DNA of 64,000 nucleotides from Beroe forskalii (lineage: Eukaryota > Ctenophora > Nuda > Beroida > Beroidae), in NCBI GenBank assembly GCA_011033025.1, contig WFMF01000260.1:124001-188000 (forward strand), given 5' to 3'. Positions 7,688-61,600 of this stretch are shown here, one piece after another (positions within the stretch are counted from its first letter, which is position 1; the number at the start of each line of letters is the position of its first letter). The notes below the pieces were generated by a model, which saw only the letters and a program-made list of their open reading frames with translations, did not search any database and had not been told where the DNA came from. The translations under genes were made by a program, and so were the position numbers.

Positions 7688-10600
7688 CTGAGAGATTGGG
7701 TGTCAGAATTGGGAGGCTTCTACCAGAACTTCCCAGAGCCTTATATACAGGAGTAATTACACGTCAAGAGGGACATTCGATTAGTCAACAGATTCAAAGG
7801 GGGACATTCAATCGATTACATTCCTCTAGAATTGCCAATGGCTCCTGTCACTAGAATTGAATTATTAAATTCACACCGTTGAATCAAAATCAGAATTTTA
7901 ATAGAAATCATAAATGCTCCGGGTAGAAATCTAATTCGATTTGGATCAAAGAAGTCACATTTGAAGGCACTCTATTACAATGTTTTGAAGAATACAGAAC
8001 AAACTGACTAATAAGACTTACAGCCATGATAGGGAATAGTTGGTGGTAGGGGTATGGTGCTTCCCGCTTCTTCTTCTCCTGTTGTTGCTGAATGTGAGAG
8101 ATCTGGGGGCGTTGTTGTTGTTGCTGCTGTTGTTGTTGCTGTTGTTGTTGCTGCTGTTGTTGCAAGTGTTGTTGCTGTTGCTGGTGGTGTTGCTGTAGGG
8201 CACTTGCCATGTGACTCGGCAGCTCGAAGGGCCGGTGAGGGGCGCTGTGTGGGTGTCCGGGACCAGAGTTGGAATGTTGCTGAGCAACCGCCGCAGCAGC
8301 GTTGTGTTGCTGTTGCTGAGCAGCAGCTAGTGCTTGTTGCTCTATGAAGCGGGCCCACTGGGAGGCTTGCTGTGAGTTTTCAGGGGTTTGGGGAAGGAGG
8401 TGGGCAGCAGCTGCCTGTTGCTGCCTGGCTAAGGCGTCACGACTAGCTGCCTCTATCAGCTGCTCTTGCAGGTACTTTTGCTGAAACAGTTAATCGAATT
8501 AGATCGACACATTGAATTTGAAATCGTCATTGATTAACATTCACTGGAGAAAATTTGTACGGATTGCTAAATAATAGCAGGGGAATACCGGTCATTGATA
8601 ATCGACAGCAGGCAAATTCACACCAAGTTACCTCAGGAACAGTTCGAGCATTCTTCAGCAGCTCCTGGATTCGTTCAGCATTGAAATGCTGCTGTTGCTG
8701 CTGCAGATGTTGCTGTGCAGCAACTGCCTGCTGATGTTGCTGCTGTTGTTGTTGAGCCTGTTGTTGCTGAGCTTGTTGCTGTTGCTGTTGTTGCTGGGCT
8801 TGCTGTTGCTGCTGCTGGGCTTGCTGAGCTTGTTGCTGCGCCTGTTGCTGTTGCCGAGATAAGGCCTCCAGATGCTCAGCAATCTGCTCTTGCTGTAGTT
8901 GAGGATGGAGCCCTTGAAGCAACTTCTGAAGGATTGAATTGTAAGTATCATAAAATATCAAAGCAGTTATTGGACTGCAAAGATCAATTGCTTACATATG
9001 TGAGCAACATTCAACAAGAGGCTGAAATTTGACATTTTTTGGCAGTAAAAATAAGAGCTGAGGAGAAGATAATAGCAGTTTTGAAAACGTTAACAATTTT
9101 ACTGACGTTTTCCAGGGCAGATGGTTGTCTGATTCCTGGGAAGTTAGGGATTATCCCTGGGGGTGCCATGGGAGGGGGCCTCAATCCATGGGGCATGTTG
9201 TACAGACCATCTGCCTGCATCTTGAGGAGATTGGGGTTTAGTATTTGTCTAATTTCCAATCTATTTGTTCAATCATCTGAAACATTGGCAACTAGTTGAA
9301 CAAAATTTGTTTCTTTGTTTCGCAAGAAAAATTAAAACCAAATTACCTTGAATTTAGCTGCTGCCTCTTGTTGCTGTAGCAGTTCCATAATCTTTGCTTG
9401 TGCCAGAGCAGCGCTAGGTTCTATCTTAGCGATTGTTTCCTGTTTGACAGCAGCTGAGGTAGGTAGTTGGGAGCCTCTGAAGATGCCATTAGCTCCCAGC
9501 ACTGCCGCGGCACTGGGCAGAATGCCAGCACCTGGCAGGATGCCAGCTGCCGCGGCAGGCAGCATGGGGTTACCCCCCGCGGCAGGGATGAGGGGGGAGA
9601 AACCAGGGTGTCCGCTGTAGATGGAGGACTGGGGTTCCTGCTTGATGGGGGTGCGCGCTGCTTTAGCCACAGGAGTCTCCTTCTTGACAGTGTCCTTTCC
9701 CAGGAACACCAGGTCAGTTCTGCAGCACCTCTCCAGAGGACGGCACGAGGGACGGCTGAAGGACACCTGTCCGAACTTTACAGTCAGGGCCTTGTTGGGC
9801 TCCTCCTTGGCTTCCTCGTCTACAAAGTCCTCGTCCTCTTCCTCCTCCTCCGCATTCTCCTCCTCTACATTGACTGCTGTCATGTCCTCGTCATCGTCTA
9901 TCAGCAGCTCACCTGAGGGGGCGGAGGGTTAATTATTATATTACTCAGCAGAATGGGTGATCGGGATTAGACTTTTGGAGCTGAAAACTCAAGTTCGATG
10001 ATTTGCTTATATCAGTAGTACATTGTTTGAAATTCACCCAGGTAATCACTTTGTTTTAGGAATTATTGCTAGTTGCTTAGCTCACACGATTTTTAAACTT
10101 CTTTGTTTGTTATAATAGTGCACGTGGAAACACTATGAATTACAGATAGCAATACAAAACATGCATTATCATGAGTTATTGAACAAGTGCAAGAATTTTT
10201 ACGCGAGCTGAGATTAGCGACAGTGTCATGCTGCACTCTACAGATCGTGATAAATTGAATTATATTCCTGGAGCGGCCAATTCAAACACGTAACAAGGAC
10301 GATTGTGTAGCTGGGAAGTTTAACTCTTTAAACCTGTGCATGTTATCAAGATTATAGACGGTGACCGGGATGGTTTTAAAGCTCCAGGCCAAAACAAAGC
10401 AGAGAGATTTTGAAAATTCGGTAACATGATCACGTTTACATACTAGAAAATTTCGACACTAGATAAGAAAACACGAGGAAAATGCAGTGACTTGATAAGA
10501 TTATAATGGTACCGACATGGCCTCATATTTATGACTTGATGCCAAATCAGGCGTTATTTAAACCGCATAATTTCTCACCTCTACCACAGCCACATATTTG

Positions 10601-13600
10601 AGTGAAATCACCAAATTATGACACTCAATAATCCCACCCCCACACCTAACCTGAGTGATCCTTCTCGTCCTCCTCCTCCTCGGGAACTGTCTCTGTCTGG
10701 GAATCCTTCTCTGGCTCCGGTGAAGTGTGTTCCAGGTTGTTCTCCCCCGACTTGACTGTCTCCGTTTCACTACCCCCGTTCTTCACGGACCCCGCCAGAC
10801 TTGACTCCGAGAGACTGGACTCTGAGAGGGGCGGCAGTTCCCCAAACCGCTTGAAGTGGAGGCGGCAGGGCGAGCAGAGGATCATCTTGTTGCTGCCGCC
10901 GTAGCGCCACCTCTCGCTCTCCTTGGTCTTGCAGTGGTCGCAGGTCAGGTCCTCCCGTCCTACCAGCTCACCATCCTCAGCGTTACTTTCCTCACTCTCC
11001 GAGCCCTGACTATCAGACCCAGAGGTGCCTTCCCCAGCCTCAGAGCTAGCGTTATCATGCGATAACTTGCACTTCTTGGAGAAGGGCAGGCCGTTGTTCT
11101 TAGAGCCTTTCTTCTTAGCGAACCTAATGTTCAGCGCGGAGGGTGTCATCTTCCACAGGTAGTAGTACTCCACGATTTCCTTAGTGTTCTTCTTCGGGAG
11201 GTACTCTCGACGGATCTTGTCGAAATGCTTCCCGAACTGCTTGATGCCCTGCTCGAAGAGCCGCTTTTCTTCTTCAGCCCATTTGGTGATCGCCCTGCGA
11301 AGATAATATGAAGTGAATTGCTGAATGATGGTTTGTTAAGTCACGTAAAATCGTATTTCTATTAATTCACCATAAAATTGAATCAAAGCGAAGTCTTTTA
11401 AAATAACGGAATCAGCGGAGCGTTGCAAAGAAAATTTTAATCTGCGTAACTGCAATTCAAAGAAAATGGGTTAAAATAAAACAAATCAACGAAATAAGAA
11501 CGAAAAATATTTCACTGAGCTGAATCCGAAATATGCCACTGAGTCAAATTTATCAGTCTACAAACCACTGACCTAGCAACGGCGTAATAACCTATATATT
11601 AACCATATTAGCAACACAAAAGCAAACAAAGGGTTGCTATAGCAACACTAACGTTTTGTGGGAGGGTAGAGCGATCATGCCGGCCAGGGCCTCGGAAGAG
11701 TTGTATTCGTTCTCGTGAAGGAGTTTGAGGGCGTCGAAGGAAGCGGCGTCGTTACACGACATGTCGATACCCTTCTTCATGGTGCCGCCGTTACAAATAC
11801 CCGCCAAGGCAGCCACACTTCTGAGGGGATGGGAGTTACAGATACCCGCCAAGGCAACCACACTTCTGAGGGGAGAGGGAGTTACAAATACCCGCCAAGG
11901 CAGCCACACTTCTGAGTGGGTTACAAATACCCGCCAAGGCAGCCACACTTCTGAGGGGAGAGGGAGTTAAAAATACCCGCCAAGGCAGCCACACTTCTGA
12001 GGGAGGGGGAATTACAAATACCCGCCAAGGCAGCCACACTTCTGAGGGGGGGGAGTTAGAAATACCCGCCAAGGCAGCCACACTTCTGAGGGGGGGGGAG
12101 TTACGAATACCCGCAAAGGCAGCCACACTTCTGAGGGAGGGGAGTTACGAATACCCGCCAAGGCAGCCACACTTCTGAGGGGTTAATGAAGTAATGAGGG
12201 CAGGTATTGTGAAGGTAGGGGTAGGAAAGGGGGTTGTATAGGGGGTAGGAAAGGGGGACACGCATAAATGGGATCCCGAGAGGGATTGTGAATCAGATAA
12301 AAGATGAGATATGAATGCAACATGATGTGCAACGAGAAATTGGATGGAGATAAGAAGTGTAGTGTTAAGCTATCAAATGTGACAATAAGTGACAATAACC
12401 TGATAAACACGTCTGTATAGCAACTAGTCATCATGTGAATATTACAGAGAGAGCGAGCTGGTCAATGAAAGAAGGCCTTATACGGCAGGCGAATATTACG
12501 AGTACGTGGTCTGGTTATTAACTAGTTAGCTCGTCAAACAAAAGTTCGTTAAATGACACACAAGCAAATTTGATGAGAATTGTTCTCATCCAGGCATCAC
12601 ACACACGAAATGGAGCGGCTATTGTGAAGTCAGTTTGCCGCCTGTGTATATCACCGAATGCAGGTGATAAGCAGATCAGGTTTTAGGGGGCAACATGGTA
12701 GAATTACAGGGAACATAATACAGGCCAAGTTAAGCCAACCCTTATCAGGGAAGGCGCTAAATTAAATTATCATGGTGAAAATACATACAAAAAACACTGG
12801 ATATTATATTGCATATGTAGGCTGTACCTTGCTACTCTGATGTACTGCTTGAGATCTTTATCGTTCAGTTTTCCGGGAATCCAACACTGCAAAAAAGAGA
12901 GGTAAGTCATAGATTCAAGTTTGCATTGGGTTAAGTTTAAACAGGATTGCATCTCTGAATGCTCGAAATCTTTGAATCAAAAATGTCAAAGAATTCGGCG
13001 TTTTGGGATCCAGAATTTCATAACCAATCCCCAAATCCCAGGTCTCGAAGACCCTGTACTCTCAAAGACCTTCCCAGTCATTTTCCTGCAGATTAACCCC
13101 AGGCACTCAGTGTACACATGGAACGGTTAATAAGCTCCTGTTCAGTGCCGTGTTCAGTGCGGAGTGAGCCAAGAGGGTGCTATTGTCTTTTATTATCTGG
13201 CAATTATTGTCTGTTTATTGTCAGGCAATTCTGACACCTCACAACCTCGTGCAACAAACGTGAACTCAAGAAGGAGTCCTTATCACATCTGTCACAATGG
13301 GGTGGTCTGAACCTTTCAGCTCACATGCAGTACCGGGTTAGGTACAATAACTAACCTCAGAACAGAAGGCACTAACTGAGTCGCAGTTTATATTGTAACA
13401 GTTGGACCATTGGACCAATTCTCAGCTCATTGAATACACCTGTTTTTTGCAAACTCAGTCACCACCCCCGGAACAGAAGGTGAATAAACTAAAAGTCACA
13501 GCTATGGTTATTGGTTACAGTAGAACCAATTCTCAGTGAAATTTCACCTGTTTATGCAAACAAAGTTTCTAGGAAGTGCACTATCGGAACCAATTGAGCT

Positions 13601-16600: not shown

Positions 16601-19600
16601 GAAACAGTCAAATTCTATTAGCAATAGCTCATCCACACACCATACACAGCTTAGTGTGACGTCATTATCAGAGGGTAATGTAGTAAGTTGATGACGATCT
16701 ACCGCCTATTTTTTCTTCCTCCGACACCTATAATTCCACTTGCTCGAAGTCATACAAACAGTTCTCATGTTTTAATGACGGGTGAAGCAGTGCAGTGAAG
16801 GACAGTCAAGTCGCAGTGATATTTCCTGGCTGTGTCTGTGTCAATACGCTGGTAATTTGATTAGTATCGATTAGCACCGCGTAACAGTGCGTAACAACAC
16901 TAACAACCCTCGTTTTCCTGACATTATGTAATGATAATGAGTCTCGTCACCTCTATAACCGGCTCAGGCATTGTTGTTTTTAAACGATACTGATGCAACA
17001 CCTCATGACATCAGACGGCAGCAAGTGTTCTGCCACATATTTCATGAAATTCTGTCTGTCACTTAACCAACCAATGCGATAGAGGAAGCAATTCATATAG
17101 TTGAGGAGTGAAATTAAATGCAACTGTCGAGTATAAACATTCGAATATAAAGTAGCCAATAGGAATATCGAATATAAAGTTATAACCAATCGGAATTCCG
17201 CATTATGTAGCCACCTGGGATTCAAAGTACCTGTGATTCGGGTGATGCACAGTAGTTTTGTCGTTTCTCAACTTCCACATCCAAATATTCTGGTAGTTCA
17301 GCCTGAAATGGATCAACGTTACGAGGTATGTTTAAAAAAACAGTAAAGGATGATATAACAGAGCACGTGATATGCAAGTCATTATACGGACGATAAACAT
17401 CTGAATTCTGAAATAAAACTGATTTCTTGAACAGAACAGAGAATTTCGCGAGCACACAGGTGCACTAAGACGATCTGCTAAGTACACTAGACGAACACAA
17501 TATGGTACTGAATGAAGATTGACTCATTTTGTCTACAGACAAAAGTCACAAGTACTGGACGAACAAAGGACACGTACATTTCTCAAAAGTTAAGAAAACA
17601 CAAAACACAGCTTACGGTTTATTCAAAAGTGGAACTAACACATATGACACAATTATTAAGAACTATAAAAGTTGTAAAACAGACGTGTCACGACATCTGA
17701 GAATGATTCTGAAATTTCCATTTTTCACCCGGATATTTTAACTTTTACCGTGCGGACGACTCAGGAAATTTCAGAAAGATGCTCGTTAGTGCCGTGACAG
17801 CTGACAAACACGGAGAGGGAAGGGTGAACTTACACAGGACTCAAGGGGAACCGGTCGACCCTGCTCATCCATAACCTTGCCTATGACAACCATCGCATAT
17901 TCTTACCTCAAATAAACCCGGGGATGTTTTATAATGGTCGGAGAGAAAAGAAATGACGAGAATTGAGATTTATAAGAATAGGCGGGATTACGATTCGAGT
18001 AAAATTTAACGCAATTTGAATGATGAAATGCGCTAAATTACTATTTAAAATTAGTCATAAATCTGCTAAATAGAAACCCCGTTCCGTTTTAGGGAGAGCT
18101 ATGAGACATGCAGAATCGAACGCCTAATCTTTTATCATGCACCAAAACGGCGGTGAAATCCGGCCTTATATTGGCCCTGTTATCACATAAAATGTAACAA
18201 AAATGTTAAAAGCGGAGAAAAGGCAAACTGAGGATTCGAATTAGCTAAATTCTACTAAAATTATCTTACTCCATTTAAATTATAAACGGAAGTCAAAGCC
18301 CAGACAGGTGTTACAATAAATGGTGGTAACCCTTTAACCTGGCAGCAACATAATTAACCCCCATACGGTTGGAGGGTTCTATTGTGTAAACGTTAAACTG
18401 CGTAAACGTTAAAATTGGTAAATGTTAAACCAGGCAAACGTTAAACCGGGCAAGCGTTAAGCCGTAAACCGGTTAAATCATCCTGTAGTTATTTCTGGTG
18501 ATTTTCAAGCCGGCGTATCATCGCCTCAACCGTTTATATTCGGTGAGCGCACGGAGCATTTGAAAAGTAAAATTAACAACAAATCCAACAGAAATACATT
18601 AACACGGAGCCAAACTGGAGATATTAATAAATTGAGATCATATATAAATGAAATATGGAATTAATAATGCGCATAATATGCAGCGGCCGAGAGTGCCACA
18701 TTGCGATCTGGCCGACATGTTTCTATTTAAAGCCCGGTAAGCTGTGCTAGCTGAAAGACAGGCGAAAGAGCCCGAGTTCATGAGTCAAAGAGAGAAATCT
18801 AGCAGTACGGTGTAAAATAACACGAGAATATATATCGAGTACTGTCGACAAATTTGTGCGTGTGTATGTGTGTGGGGAGGTGAGAAAATAACACGTATAT
18901 GCGTAGTCGGTTCACGGGTCTGTGCAAATTATTGTATATAAATGACAGCACGCCTTAAATTAGTCACTATGTCACACATCCCTCCTCCCTCTCGACAAGT
19001 AAACCTCATTCTATCACGACAATAACCACAACTACCCTCTCCTCCTACCAACTCCTCCAATAAAGAACTCCCTTCCTCCTCCCTCCCTTCCTAGAATGCA
19101 GGGATGCTTCAACCGTCGTACAGACCTCGTTTTATACGTTTCCGCGTATCACAGAGCCGACCACTGGCAGAGCGGAGTCAAAGACATAAAAAGGTGGAAA
19201 TGAGGGTGAAGAGGGTAGCCTATCCTCCGGTACTACGTCCTTAGTGCAAAATATCGAATTATCATCGGGGTAGATCCAATGAAATTACACCAAAATACGG
19301 CTATTATGTATTGATATTTTGATCGAATATATATATACGCCTAGTAGTCGTGAGCTCCCATTATAGTAGCTCTTTTCACGTATTTATAGGGAGAGAAACT
19401 CCCTCCAGCACGTTACGTCATGAGCAGGAATTAGAAACAGGAGAGACGTGAAGCTGCCCTGCACTCCGTGACAGATAGACAGGAGAAATAGCAGTAAACA
19501 GACAAGTGGCGGCTGCACGAAAGAGAGTGTGGCCCGAGATGGAAATTACCTTAAATTAGGTTACATACTGGTAGCCATTAATCAAATTAGGAGGAGCCTC

Positions 19601-46600: not shown

Positions 46601-49600
46601 CCCACAAAGCCTCAAAGTCAAATTGTCACAACCAGCAATCACCAAGATGATCAGGGCATAAGAAGATGATAATAATAGTGTCACAGACGTACTTGAGTAG
46701 TTTTTACAAAGTGAACGATCATTGACACTATGTTGAATGTTCTGATATTCCAGAACGACCAAACTTTTCCAGACCATTTGCATTATTGGCGCCGAGCCAA
46801 GTTGCTCTTTGATTTATTTCGTGAAGGAATTTCGATGGATCAATTCCGAATGGATAATGAAGCTTTATAATTTCAAATGTCACCTCGAGACCATGTTAAC
46901 ACCACCGAATAACTCAGCAAAATCTGAAGAACCTCATTAACTCGTTCAAAGTCCTCAATCTCACACATTTTTCTGACCACAAACCGTGCATATGTAAGCT
47001 TAATGTCCAAAGCAACTTTCTTTCCTCAGAAATGTTAATGAAAGGTCTTGAAGATGCTCCACATAGGTACAAATGGAATTCAGAAAATGACCAAATGCTT
47101 CACAGCTTCTCTGAACAACAGTGCAAGCAATCAGTAGTTGGCAGGATAGCAGAGCTAACTGAAAGCCCTTGCATCAAAGACCCAACCACCACAGTGTTAA
47201 TAATCATACTCGAGCAAAGGGTAAAACCCTGGTTTGATTCCGACTGCATTCAGGCTAAACAGGAGCTAAGACGCCTCGCTAGAGTATATGGGGCATCACC
47301 TACTAACGAAGAAACTAGAAATTGCTACTACAAATGCAGAAAGGGTATCGAACTCTTGTGAAAGGAAAAAAGAGAGCTTCATCCTAGAACTTAGTGCAGA
47401 AATTGAGGCAAACGATGGCATAAACTGGAACAAGTTCAAGAAACTGGAGCACAGCTAAAGAAAGCAAACTCGATGCTTTTGACTTCATTGGATTTTGTAG
47501 TTTCTTCAAAAAATTGTACAGCAATAAATCCTTCCAGTTCCAAGATAGAGCATCTGAACAACGACAGACCGATTAAAAACATTAAAGAAGATCTTGCAGA
47601 GATTCTTGACTCTGATATTACGATGCAGGAGCTTAATGATCTTATTACTAGCAGCAAACCCGGCAAAGCAGTGGCTGAGGATCTCATCCCAAACGAATTC
47701 CTCAAAGCCTCTTGCCATAGCATGCGACAGCTTTTGTTGTTCTTGTTCAACAGTGCCTTCAGCTGGGGGGTTTATCCTTGGTCAACATCTAAAGTAACCC
47801 ATTGCATAAAAAAGGGGACATATACGACCCTAATAATTACAGGGCTATTGCCGTAGCAAGTAACCTAGGCAAACTGTTCTCAGGAATACTGCTGCAGAGA
47901 CTCTTGGCCTTCAGACGTGAATCCTGCCCAGACACACCCAATCAGCTCGGTTTCTGTAAAATGCTGACATCCGATCACATACTTGTCTTAACTACCATCA
48001 TTAACAAGTATGTCAAAAAACACAAAGGGACGACTCTACATGCTTCGTTGACTATGCCAAAGCTTTCGATTCAGTGTGTCGAGAGGCCCTACTAGTTAAC
48101 GATCATTGACATATGTTGAATGTTCCTTGATATTCCAGAACGACCAAACTTTTCCAGACCATTATTATGCCGAGCCAAGATGCCTTTTGATTCATTTCTA
48201 AGAATTTACGGATCAATTCCGAATGGATAATGAAGCTTTATAATTTCAAATGTCACCTCGAGACCATGTTAACACCACCGAATAACTCATAGAGTACCGG
48301 AAACAGATCAATGTCCACGTGACCCCTCTTTGAAGTCCAAGAAGTGCCATCTAGTCACTGAGAAACGTGCTTTGTGTCAAAAGCCAAAATTCCACAACTT
48401 TCATTGGAAATTATATTATAATATGTTCATATATTTTACAACAACATCATCACAGAGTGCAGCTGTAGGTACAGTTTGTAATGTTGTTCAGGTTCACCCC
48501 TTTCATTTCCCGTAGAATACCGAATATTATGACGAAGATGCTAAAAAGCAGTACGCACGAGACCCTAAGATTGTCAATATAAAGGCAGGAGCAGGAGCGA
48601 ATCTTAAAAGTAAGCTGTTCCGAACACATTACAGGTCTAAAAGCAGCTTATCAATAAAGAAAAAAAAACTATTCATATAGCGAAGAAAAAAAGGTGTTAT
48701 ATAATCTCTCAATAGAAATGGGCTTGCATTAGCAAGAGAGAAAGTGACAAAAAAGAGAGCGAGACGTTGAGAGTACGAGGGAGCTAGGGAGAGAGATAGA
48801 GAAAGAGAGATGACAGAGGCTCGTCCTTAAAAAGTCTTGTCTTTATCCCTAATAAAGGTGAGCGATAATAATAAATTATATGAGAGAGAGGGAGGTAGGA
48901 TCGCAGACTAGAAATATTTGCTGAGCGTTTTAGCAGGGGGAGGAAATTGTTGACGGCAAGTTATTAAATGGTGCAATTTAAGTGCTTTAGTGGTTTGTGG
49001 TGTTTATATTTAATACAGAGGGACAGTTAACGTGATAGGTTCCCAGGTTAATAAAACACTGAAAGATTGCATGAACACAGAACGAATGGACACAATTAAA
49101 TTACCTTCTTCTGAATGACAGGGAAAACACGATCATAGTGTTTTAACTGCAGTAACCGTGTTGCTGCATAACTATCTTAAAATGATGAGAGCTCTTAAAA
49201 AGAATTCACAAGTTAGAGCTCTCATTGAGCTCACATAGAATTCATGAGGCTCAGCAACGAACCCACAAATAAATTCCTGGATGTTGAATTGCTGTGTCAA
49301 AGGTTCGCATTATCACACAATTCGTATAACAGAGAACCCTCCCGGTACGAATGCTCCTGATTGCCGCCAAAAGCTTAGCATAAGCTAGATTTGTAAGGGC
49401 CGGTATTTAATATGAGTGCCTACAAATGGCACAGATAATCGCTTGACTAAGGGTCCAAAGATCCCTGGTATTTTCACACAATACGAGAATTGTGGCGTTA
49501 GGAGAGGGTTCAAAGAGGAAGAATTAGAGATTTGGTGGCTATAAGAAGCAAGGAAACAACTGAACTCCTGAGCTAGAAATTAAGTATCACTCTAAAGATA

Positions 49601-52600
49601 AAGAATGGGTGGTTGAAATAGCCTGCTTTGACCCAGAGATATTACTGTACCGTGGACAGGAGACAGGAATGGAAGATAGCTGGAATGGGGCTGATATTCG
49701 GGGACGATATGACGAAGGCATGTATATTCTTTAGCTGTATTAGGGGACAGAACGCCGCGTTGCCAGGGACTCCCCATTCTCCATTACTACAATGGCTCTC
49801 AGCCTCGCATTGTGTGTCGGAGCAGCGACTTATTAACATTCATGTAATCAGGTGACGGACCCGTGGAGGTAGAATTACTGGGCAACGAACTGGGTCCGCG
49901 TATTGTGCGGGCATTTGCCGGATTAATCAGTCTAAACAATAATCTAGTATCATGCCATAAGCATCAACCCATGCCCCATTCAAGTCTTAACAGCTGGTCT
50001 CTACTCTCTGATCTGTCAAGATAGGAATCCTGAGGGATCTTTTTGTAGTACTACGAGAAAATGTGTAGAGTTGTAATTGTGCAAAAAAATTGAAAATATT
50101 TCTAACATTCATGAAATATATTTCTGGTACTCACAATTATTGAATTTGTTCGCTCTCAGCAGCTGGTATCACAATAGATCACAATGCCTTTTGATGGATG
50201 ATCACAAATAAAGGTGTCATACTACTAATATAATGGGAAGAACAAAAATATAATTATCACATTGTCCAGAAGGGCTATTGTCACATATGCGATGGATGGA
50301 ATTGACGAGGAATAAACTAGGTACGTAAGTTCTAAATACCTTGTGACATATTATTGTCATAATATACTGTACACATCATCTTATTGAGGATGCACGCCCA
50401 ATCAACGTACGCAGTTCAGCACTTTAAAACATGATACTTACGTCACGCTGAATAGCCTGCTTTAGAGCCCTGCTAAACCCCCCACGTGACACATTTAATG
50501 GTAATATATAACAAGTAGGACAGCTGTTGCTGGACAATACACATTAGCAGCAGCAGCTGCTGGGAAAAGGCAGTAGGAGCTGGTGATGTAATGCGATGGT
50601 AATTTGTGTGTGCCCAACTGATGTCACAATGGTAGAGAGCTCGAGTTGCGAGATTCTCAAGAGGTCACATGACTTACTACGACAATATTCGTTTAAAATG
50701 ATACTTAAAATATATAAATGCTTAAATGACATGAAAGAATGAACTGTTAGCTATTATCTTGTATCTCAATTCTCAAGACAGCTATGAACAAGAAAATGCT
50801 GACAATTATTCGAGTATATCACTTAAGCACTTACCAAGTAACAAAATAATGCTATAGGATGTCGAATAAACTAATAAACTAAAGTTGTAACGCCCATCTG
50901 TTGTCTCACGACAGATGGGAAATAAATCATGAATTGGCAATTGAAAATTACTGAATGAAAACTACAGATGAGCATTTGAATATTTAACAAAATTCCAATT
51001 CCGTGGACCAATAGTGGCCTAGGCCATACAACAGATCTGATAGTGAAGAAAACCTTATAACTTCACAGATCAGACTATACTTCATGACACGATGAAAACC
51101 CTTGCAACCCCTCTCCCATCCCTGTAGATCCCACACTCCACTGAAAACCCTTGCTAACCCCCTCCCTATCCCTCTAGTAAGATCCCACACTCCTCTAAAA
51201 ACCCTTGTTAACCCCCTCCCCATCCCTCTATAGATCCCACACTCCACTAAAACCCTTACATCATCCCCTAGATCCCCCCTATCCCTTCTCATCCCATCCC
51301 TCTAGATCCCACACTCCACTAAAAACCCTTGCTATCATCCCATCCCTCTATAGGTCCCACAATCCACTAAAAACCCTTGCTATCATCCCATCCGACGGCA
51401 CACAGATAAAGCATAAAGCCAGGCAGTAGTAATGGTCGTGGCAAGGACACGACAGCGACGAGGAAGACGAAGAAGAAAGAGATTAACTCTCAGTACACAA
51501 AGTTTATAATATATATTATATTCTTTACCCCTCCATTATGCATGTATTACTGTGTGCAATCACCAGTCATTCCTCTACCAGCAGCGGAGAGAGATGATCA
51601 ATTAGCCAGGCACTCTCTCATAACTCCTCCTCCTCCTTCTCCAATATAACCTCTCCTAAAACCTGCAGAGTGCAGGGCTACAGCTGGGCTCCAATACTTC
51701 CACCAAGCCTCCTGGGTGCGTGTTGTAGGTCTCCACTGCTTCCTACAGAGCTCCGTGTTTTTTACCGGCCAGCAGATGGATGCTATGACCTGTGATCTGC
51801 CACTGGATTTGTGTAACTGGGGTACTCAATAATCCCTGCAGATCTGTGATCTGCCACTAGATTTGTGTAACTAGGGTACTCAATAATCCCTGCAGATCTG
51901 TGATCTGCCACTGGATTTGTGTAACTAGGGTACTCAATAATCCCTGCAGATCTGTGATCTGCCACTGGATTTGTGTAACCGGGGTACTCAATAATCCCTG
52001 AAGACCTGTGATCTGCCACTTGACTTGTGTAACCGGGGTACCGGGACATTCCAGATCGGTGATCTGCCAAAAAGCCACTGGATCTGGGATGTTTAGTGGG
52101 ATATGCTGTGCAAGGGGATTGAGAACATGATGGGAAGAGTTAATGCCTACTGGATTCATGGCCTGGGATCACTAATCTTGTTCCTGTTTAGGCCAAGGCT
52201 GTAGTCCACAGACCCTGATCCATCACAATATCAAATACGAACTAATTTCAAATCAAGGCACAAATTGTTAGAAGTGGTAGGTATGAGAGGCACGAAGATA
52301 TTTAAACCCAGGCCCTTGTAACGGAGTCTTGCATTATACGATGCTCAGAAGACAGATTGATCAAGATTATCACCCGGTGACAGCTCACCTGAACGAAATA
52401 TATTTCTATTAGCAAAATGACAGCAACGCACTTAAATAACCACTGAGCTGAGAGACAGCTAATCATGCGTTTCAATACTCTCACAGGAGCCTCAACATGT
52501 CAAACAATCACATAGATTCAAATAGATCTTCAAATAATGTGAGGTGGGCCTTTCTGGGAATATATAACCGAGCTCAAGATTGACAGGAGATCGGTTATAG

Positions 52601-58600: not shown

Positions 58601-61600
58601 TGTCCTGTATAGCCCCGGACAATGGATTCACACCACGATTCATCGCACTTAGGGTATCAGGAAAAATTGCAATTTCTGCGATCCAATTCTTCGAGTATTC
58701 GCAGAAAAATCAAATCAGAGCAAGTGGGGATATCGGGGCAGGGTACGTTGTAAATGGAACAGGTTATGACACTGAAGTCACATGGGAGTCATTGTCCTGC
58801 TAATTTTCACACTTACGGGGGCAGTATGATCTAGTAAACACCATCTGGTCAATAGCCAAAAGTCAGGGAAAGTATCGATCCTCGTATACAAAACTATAAA
58901 ACGACAGTAACATGTCAAATAACACGTCCATAAATTTGTCACTAAATTTCTAAACTATTCGCCCTTTATCGGCCGTCCTATAGCTCTCAACTGCCCTCTC
59001 AAACAAAGTCCGTCTATCATATCGGGAGAATGTTAGAGTGGTAGGCCACAGACAGGAAAATAGGAGCAATTGCGCACCATTGAGTGCCCAGCACCCACCA
59101 TCCAGTACTTCCAGCACACCCAGTATGCCCTCTACCAGAACATTACCCAGTTCCCACCACCAGTACCCCGGTACTTGGCACGCAGGGCCTCCCAAGCACT
59201 CCCCAACCACGACAACATGTCACGAGACATGAAAACAAGGTCACGTGACCTGAAAACCAGATCACGTGACATGAAAACAGGGTCACGTGACACAGCAAAG
59301 CTCTACGCTTGAATGGGAGCCGGAGTCTTTAAACGGAGTTTAAATGAGTAATGCGGAATATAATGGGTTGGAAAAGTGAGCTGTATGGAGAGAGATATAT
59401 GCGAGATAGATTTACCATGTACGCAGGGAAGTGGCTGTGATGACGCCATTATCACATCTGGAAGTGGTGGGTTAGTGACGCCTCACTGCCTGTAGCTGGT
59501 GAGCGGCCTATAATATCGGAGTCTTGATATATGTGATGATAAACGTGAGATATGCAGTGCACGACCAACATATTTAATTTCATCACTACTGCTTCTAACT
59601 CAAATCAGGCATGAAGTAGAGGAACTGGTTGTGAGTGACATCAGAGCGATGGTTTAGGACAGTTGGAGTGATGACGAAGTACGTCTATTTTCCGTAATAT
59701 GACCGCCATTACTGCCACGAGAGGAATAAATTTCGGCGTTTTATTTAAAAAAATTATAGAGCAAATATTCTCCGATATTCTTCGTCATTATTTGGATTAT
59801 AGTAACACTAGATGGCCGACTTTTATTGGTTGAAATTTGAATTTCACAGCTGAACGGCAAATCTAAGAGTTGCAGGAACTCTCAAAACACTTCATATTTC
59901 ATATATCCAGTTGCAAAGTTAAGAAATTTTGCCGCCGACAAAATTTCCCAGGAAGATACTATGAATGAAGACATAGGGCAATAACATGACCTTAATAATA
60001 ATACATGAAAATATTATGCCATTCCATCAACAAATCAAGAATAAATCACGGTAATAGAATGAGGATATTTATTATTTAAGTCCTGGAATGTCGATCATTT
60101 TGATCTAGATTTTACACAATCATGAACAGCTTCGTTAGAACCAGGGAAAGGGAACGGCCAAATTTGATTATTGGTGAACAAAACAACGTTCAGTCTGATA
60201 TGGACGTGAAAAATTGGCAAATTAGATCCAAATGACCATATATGGTCTCAAACTGTTGCAATAAACCACGACATGGAAGAGAATGACCATATATGGCACA
60301 ATTACCATGACATTATTGATCCCCTTATTAAATGGAATAAAAGGAGTGAAAACAACTGCCAAAGAGCTAAAAAGGTAGAAAACGTACCTTGAGGAGGAGT
60401 TGTAGGAGAGAAGAAACAAGTTACAAAACGTACCTCGAGGAGGGGTCGTAAGAAAAGAAGAAACAAGTTACAAAACGTACCTTGAGGAATGGTTGTAAGA
60501 AAAGAAGAAACAAGTTACAAAACGTCCCTTGAAGAGGGGTTGTAGGAGAAAGAAACAAGTTACAAAACGTACCTTGAAGAATGGTTGTAAGAAAAGAAGG
60601 GTTACTAAAGTACCTGGAAAGGAGAAAACAAGTTACAAACCGTACCTTGAAGAATGGTTGTAAGAAAAGAAGAAACAAGTTAGAAAACGTACCTGGATGA
60701 GGGGTTGTAGGAGAAAGAAACAAGTTACAAAACGTACCTTGAGGAGGGGTTGTAGGAGAAAGAAACAAGTTACAAAACGAACCTTGAAGAGGGGTTGTAG
60801 GAAAGTACGTAGAGCCAGTTGTCTTTGTGAGATAGGAATTCAGCCAAGACGTTATCTTGCAGGTTGGTTATGTGCTCCACCTTACACTTGCCCCTGCAAT
60901 CAGAGTGTGTAAGTGGGGGCGGGGAGGGGTGGTTATTTCATACGATACTTTAATTGATTCTTACATTAGTTCAATATTTCACAGCACTTGGTTTATCATC
61001 ATGAATAATTTAAATTAGGTGCTGAGATGAATTGCATGGTGTGAGATTAAATGCTTTTCGTTTTCAAGAAAACGTTGGAAGTTTAAAAGACTAAAGATCT
61101 TGGCCTGCACTTTTCCAAAATATAGGTCATGTCAATGAATAATAATCAATTCAACTGAAATTGATTTTACCCCCAATATTCAGATATTGGACACCAATAA
61201 AATGCTCGCAATCACCAGTCGACTTTGAATTCTCCACTTCCTCTTTAGATTGCGTATTCTATGAACATGGCATGACACTGTGAAACAGTGGGAAGCAGCC
61301 TGATAGAAGGAGAAATTCTAATCAGTTAATCGGCCTCCTGTGTCAGTACTCTTTGTGTCGCGATTAAATTCGCGTTATTGTAATCCTGCTACCCACTGAA
61401 CTCAGTGTCACTTGTCACTTGAGCCCTGCGTCACTTGTCAGCAGCAAAGTAGGTGCATGGTTTGATACAGTACATTTGCAATTAAGTATGCCAAGAAAAG
61501 CAGCCCATCATTATATATTTCGGCTTGCCAGAAAGTATTTCATACAGCTGTTAGTGTGACCAATGTCACTAGAAGCGGCGTACATAGTGTGAGCACTGAG

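Follow-up and report, generated by a model that had tools for sequence, protein, structure and literature searches.

A nine-copy tandem array of 3' splice-site modules at a predicted ELM2 exon

The acceptor of a predicted ELM2 exon lies in an array of nine tandem 3' splice-site modules, and this nine-copy acceptor array is real. In our reading, a minisatellite has arisen over an intron-exon junction and repeats the 3' splice site, in a host that by its domain matches is an ELM2-SANT-GATA gene of MTA/RERE type. The best explanation, and in our judgement the probable one, is a junction minisatellite that is mostly tolerated and brings some splicing noise, an explanation in which we infer acceptor preference, branch sites, NMD and the origin of the array from the anatomy of the locus.

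The array and its host gene

An exact minus-strand search for CAGAAGTGTGG gave nine copies in the window (the whole stretch of 64,000 nucleotides that was analysed), and together with Tandem Repeats Finder (TRF) it defines nine tandem copies of 39-46 nt each. The exact search is blind to copies without the motif, and the TRF copy number agrees with it, as a single array was reported with period 45, 8.9 copies, 88% matches and a score of 621 (limits in Table 1). The first exon bases of acceptors 1 to 9 lie at 11820, 11865, 11911, 11950, 11996, 12041, 12085, 12130 and 12174, and successive acceptors are spaced by 45, 46, 39, 46, 45, 44, 45 and 44 nt. The sequence-only reading had proposed that the acceptor of an ELM2 exon was expanded into nine copies; both search methods bear this out, and the coordinates it gave (11820, 11865 and 11653) are right. 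It had also placed RSVAALAGICN in each of the eight extra copies, which holds letter for letter for three of them (3, 4 and 6) as well as for the canonical copy, while the remaining five are one or two residues off. With a unit of 10-100 nt and at least three copies, the array is by its TRF period and copy number a minisatellite. A DNA search of the 216-Mb, 1134-contig assembly, in which the window lies on contig C315, found it at one place, very common words being skipped.

Inside the array is a genuine coding-exon splice site, identified by homology rather than from transcripts through a phase-compatible junction and MTA1 homology across it. The canonical joined protein matches MTA1 (4bkx) at 69.4 bits, and the alignment crosses the junction through ...VARSV.... 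All nine acceptors give the same first residues, and only acceptor 1 continues into the remaining exon without an insert. The 3' end of the ELM2 exon at 11653 reads CAAAAC/gttagt with agreeing junction phases, and the SANT exon starts at 11294 after CTTCGCAG, where the phases fit as well.

Table 1. Coordinates of the array, its flanks and the exons of the host gene (window positions).
Feature	Position	Strand	Detail
Nine-copy array of 3' splice-site modules	11776..12181	-	C-rich tract, CAG and first ~31 nt of exon; TRF limits 11790-12182
Copy 2 extension, in frame, stop-free	11821..11865	-	45 nt, +15 residues SVVALAGICNSHPLR
Copies 3-9, acceptors leading to a premature stop	11866..12174	-	Stop 183-359 nt upstream of next junction
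Pyrimidine-rich intron end before outermost copy	12175..12260	-	Ends CATTACTTCATTAACCCCTCAG
Upstream exon, N-terminal part of ELM2 (AELPEYLDVEVEKRQNYCASPESQ)	17231..17302	-	Sequence; Pfam ELM2 when joined with next two exons
Exon before array (CWIPGKLNDKDLKQYIRVA, then first two bases of Arg codon)	12828..12886	-	Donor GCAAG/gtacag
Canonical ELM2 exon, acceptor copy 1	11653..11820	-	Open frame and best MTA1 match; 168 nt
Next exon, SANT and GATA zinc finger	10646..11294	-	3' limit is open-frame stop, not mapped donor

The predicted identity of the host gene rests on three domains. ELM2 (PF01448) is matched at 25.4 bits against a cut-off of 21.7 when three exons, including the one at 17302-17231, are joined; without that upstream exon ELM2 has no Pfam match, and in an exon-by-exon genome search for ELM2 contig C315 was not among the matches at E up to 10. 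SANT/Myb (PF00249) scores 28.8 bits (cut-off 24.4) and the GATA zinc finger (PF00320) 32.5 bits (cut-off 26.8), and the SANT domains matched in the PDB are those of RERE (48.8 bits) and MTA3 (47.6 bits). The assignment goes as far as the MTA/RERE type, because BAH (PF01426) has no match on contig C315 at E up to 1, a search in which an intron-split BAH could be missed, and because four open frames farther downstream, whose exon limits are not mapped, gave no Pfam atrophin match (E up to 0.1). Human RERE-L has BAH, ELM2, SANT and GATA domains and recruits HDACs (PMC10676324).

A protein search for a second copy of the host gene gave six matches, of which three are its own exons. The others are weaker relatives: a 514-residue open frame on contig C191 (32% identity, BAH and ELM2 matches, MTA-like by eye), a 569-residue open frame on contig C691 (29% identity, RCOR-like by eye) and a match on contig C555 with 44% identity over 39 residues; weaker ELM2 matches lie elsewhere in the genome on contigs C1, C198 and C555. 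Downstream of the SANT-GATA exon, long glutamine-rich tracts occur in open frames at 8111-8854 on the minus strand. Several further open frames lie downstream of the host gene on the same strand, at 144-605 of the window and at C315:114001-124000. Some frames of the latter region carry GPPxSGK motifs, which we take to be adenylate-kinase-like, perhaps from an AK9-like gene.

Reading frames from the nine acceptors

Acceptor 1 gives the open, canonical product. That the second acceptor inserts exactly 15 residues without a stop, as had been claimed, was confirmed by the frame check. The resulting product scores 61.5 bits on the same MTA1 chain, against 69.4 for the canonical one. The duplication had further been assigned to the ELM2 domain: the duplicated residues do lie within the part aligned to the MTA1 ELM2-SANT chain, but just beyond the Pfam ELM2 match. 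That match stops at residue 45, whose codon is the first to lie entirely downstream of the junction.

Acceptors 3 to 9 add 91, 130, 176, 221, 265, 310 and 354 nt, respectively, and all seven run into a stop, even the outermost, although its 354 extra nucleotides are a multiple of three. Two of the nine acceptors thus give readable products and seven give stopped ones, and under the 50-55 nt rule the latter are predicted NMD targets. These stops have a simple cause, a TAA present in every unit that comes into register in one of the two wrong frames. The outcome does depend on the acceptor chosen, in line with the sequence-only reading. That reading, which described the more distal copies as out of frame with one another, is incomplete in one respect: the seven distal acceptors do not give a set of alternative proteins, since each of them stops early. 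Nor is the frame rescued by splicing again to copy 1 from a donor-like GTATTT or GTAACT inside a distal copy, as the remainder, counted by eye as 20 or 26 nt, is in neither case a multiple of three.

An exactly in-frame, open second acceptor, whose duplicated residues fall in the MTA1-aligned stretch, might suggest that acceptor 2 has been kept for an ELM2 variant with 15 additional residues that binds HDAC or dimerises differently. However, of the 1680 distinct orders in which the unit lengths can be arranged, 67% contain at least one open extra acceptor, and so do 50% of draws with random phases. As chance already supplies one, the in-frame copy 2 is no sign of selection, and selection keeping the second acceptor in frame is not supported. 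Together with the reduced MTA1 match upon insertion, this makes a selected isoform very improbable.

The frames of the distal copies hinge on runs of up to nine C, which sequencing can miscount. These error-prone runs, and the reliance on a single assembly, are also what could be put forward for an assembly artefact with a wrong copy number or wrong C-run lengths. Yet the copies carry distinct substitutions and include a 39-nt unit, which argues against repeated assembly of one unit. Sequencing error is also less of a threat to the in-frame claim, since no C run between copies 1 and 2 is longer than four. An artefact is therefore hardly credible.

Unit anatomy, origin and acceptor choice

Each unit consists of the exon part AAGTGTGGCTGCCTTGGCGGGTATTTGTAAC (31 nt), followed by a C-rich tract and then CAG. 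The last bases of the exon part, TTGTAAC, are similar to the branch consensus UACUAAC, with five positions out of seven in agreement. The TAA core is kept in all nine copies, as is CAG, which was itself a search criterion. From the last A of this branch-like motif to the end of the AG, the distance is 14-16 nt for seven of the nine acceptors. It is shorter in copy 3 (9 nt) and in copy 9 (8 nt), and farther upstream copy 9 has CATTAC as a second candidate branch motif. The intron of the upstream exon at 17302-17231, an ordinary one of this gene that ends in TCGTAACGTTGATCCATTTCAG (TCGTAAC...CAG), likewise has a branch-like TAAC, with 16 nt to the end of its AG. Based on this anatomy, each extra unit would bring a C-rich tract, its own acceptor AG and a branch motif resembling TTGTAAC that in most cases lies 14-16 nt before the next AG, and the exon codons (TTGTAAC) of one copy may double as the branch site for the next.

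Not all features of the units favour a junction minisatellite with working splice signals as the explanation. The acceptor tracts contain few T (3-6 of 15 at positions -18 to -4), and such C-rich tracts are poor for U2AF. The eight substitutions in the exon parts of the eight extra copies are concentrated in the branch-like end: six fall within the final nine bases of the exon part (72 nt in total) and two in the other 176 nt (Fisher p = 0.008), although two of the six are the same change in the neighbouring copies 8 and 9 and may be one event. This clustering does not suggest strong constraint at the branch-like end beyond the TAA core. Folding revealed no special structure either: over 440 nt the array RNA folds less stably than shuffled sequences (z = +3.2), all 100 of 100 shuffles being as stable or more so, and RNA structure that hides or presents acceptors was rejected on this basis.

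The intron end before the outermost copy (TTAAC/CCCTCAG) and the exon (TGTAAC/GGCGG) have TAAC in common, and this shared TAAC is, from its position in the sequence, the likely seed of the first duplication. A short tandem duplication would have joined the TAAC of the exon codons ...TGTAAC to the TAAC before the CCCTCAG of the intron. Such joining predicts a first unit of ~38 nt, to which the 39-nt unit still present is close. Later expansion would have proceeded by slippage and growth of the C-tracts.

Exon definition should favour the innermost acceptor, as it gives the shortest exon (168 nt, compared with up to 522 nt) and is also nearest to the purine-rich unique exon sequence. Acceptor 2 would then yield a minor form with 15 additional residues, and transcripts using acceptors 3 to 9 would be cleared by NMD. 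The net effect would be a tolerated array with splicing noise and perhaps less productive output. Simple scanning from the upstream pyrimidine-rich stretch, on the other hand, would choose the outermost AG (12174) and lead to a stop; if that acceptor dominated, the allele would be near null.

Alternatively, the array could be inert, removed with the intron while 11820 alone is used and the copies drift as junk. The canonical product is indeed the best MTA1 match, and indels in the C-tracts break the frame freely. The 3' splice-site signals of most copies are, however, about equal to those of the canonical copy by simple features (the spacing in copy 3 is short), and RNA from the comparable donor array in ABCA7 shows that the next unit can be used (PMC5954066). 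A fully inert array is thus rather unlikely.

Another alternative would be a rheostat. Here U2AF would be drawn to the seven distal acceptors and part of the transcripts sent to NMD, with copy number and binders of C-rich RNA setting the dose of the corepressor. The NMD-type stops from seven of nine acceptors would fit, and competition is plausible given the TAA core in every copy and tracts that differ little. Against it, a single TAA repeated in each unit explains the wrong-frame stops without selection, and for the donor array of ABCA7 the length of the array made no difference to how one unit was retained (PMC5954066). We regard such a poison-acceptor rheostat as unlikely, and prefer the mostly tolerated junction minisatellite.

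Minisatellite background and known splice-site arrays

Minisatellites are dense in this genome, at ~20 arrays per 100 kb in the part sampled. With a TRF filter of period 15-150 and at least 2.9 copies, 40 arrays were counted in 200 kb of contig C691 (6.0% of bases) and 17 in the 64-kb window (4.7%), the ELM2-exon array included. At such density, weak selection would be enough for some arrays to be expected across junctions.

Other repeats and features were observed alongside. A second splice-like array, on the minus strand at 60372-60804 and at one place in the genome, has ten AGG[T/G] sites 32-47 nt apart. Its units are mostly TTTGTAACTT, a pyrimidine tract and CAAG/GTACGT, with AG/GT kept in nine of the ten, and it looks like a tandem row of recursive-splice-type sites. 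A 54-nt tandem repeat at 51790-52041 (4.7 copies, 95% matches) is open over 18-residue units in minus-strand frames, and at C315:188001-198000 long repeat tracts extend over several kilobases, reading HLIEDCHY or LPPYRGL in different plus-strand frames. The plus-strand open frame at 47796-48095 has a weak reverse-transcriptase match (PF00078; 20.9 bits, below the cut-off of 29.6) and is perhaps a retroelement remnant. At Rfam gathering scores nothing was found in the 64-kb window. The only match to mitochondrial COX1 is on contig C1134, within a piece of 2844 bases; it is divergent, with TGA as Trp and no CGN in the first 507 codons. AGA or AGG stands at sites of which some are Arg in other COX1, as in code 4. 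As a lead, this would suggest an animal outside the bilaterians, for instance a sponge.

Tandem acceptors such as NAGNAG are closely spaced and competing. The ELM2-exon array resembles them in having competing acceptors close together, but its acceptors are spaced 39-46 nt apart and come as whole modules that include a branch-like motif, nine in a row. A literature search, judged from titles and the starts of abstracts and with subscription papers mostly outside its reach, did not show an acceptor-side counterpart among the papers listed.

Two further systems involve tandem duplication of splice signals. In human segmental duplications, tandem repeats at exon-intron boundaries change splicing, with 162 alignments and, after manual inspection, 27 intron modifications (PMC2812944). 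The position of the repeats is similar, but that system concerns recent primate paralogs and novel introns, whereas the present array is one invertebrate-type locus in which an existing acceptor has gained extra copies towards the intron. Introns can also be created when splice-like sites (AG/GY proto-splice sites) are duplicated in tandem (PMC2891723). There too a duplicated segment carries a splice signal and retained forms have premature stops, but the new intron arises inside an exon, while here the acceptor of an existing intron is multiplied.

The closest likeness is to the VNTR in intron 18 of human ABCA7, whose 25-bp units start with the exon 18 donor and number about 12 to 427 copies in people (PMC5954066). 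In both cases a tandem array includes the splice site of a coding exon and each unit repeats that site. By analogy, the ABCA7 VNTR is the donor-side mirror image of the ELM2-exon array: it lies on the donor side with an intronic unit, while the array here lies on the acceptor side, with units of ~45 nt of which 31 nt are coding and with an in-frame second copy. In ABCA7, transcripts spliced from the next donor were seen to keep one unit, which puts them out of frame and predicts NMD; with VNTR length this retention did not change, and exon 19 skipping rose (PMC5954066). The lack of a length effect on unit retention argues against a simple length dial. It is quite unlikely, in our view, that the exon's own codons have been recruited as branch sites in a self-contained, copy-number-variable array of mostly poison acceptors whose length would tune the dose of an HDAC corepressor gene as a heritable dial that mutates fast.

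What sets the ELM2-exon array apart from the known systems is its acceptor-side position and coding sequence that may serve as a branch site. It offers a natural series of nine near-identical 3' splice sites in one intron, which differ by single bases and small changes in spacing and most of which have their own C-rich tract and candidate branch site. The array thus lends itself to testing what proximity, exon definition and the first-AG rule contribute to acceptor choice, and how a regulator gene tolerates a repeat whose acceptors mostly yield unreadable messages. If its copy number varies, it would be an acceptor-side counterpart of the disease-linked ABCA7 donor array.
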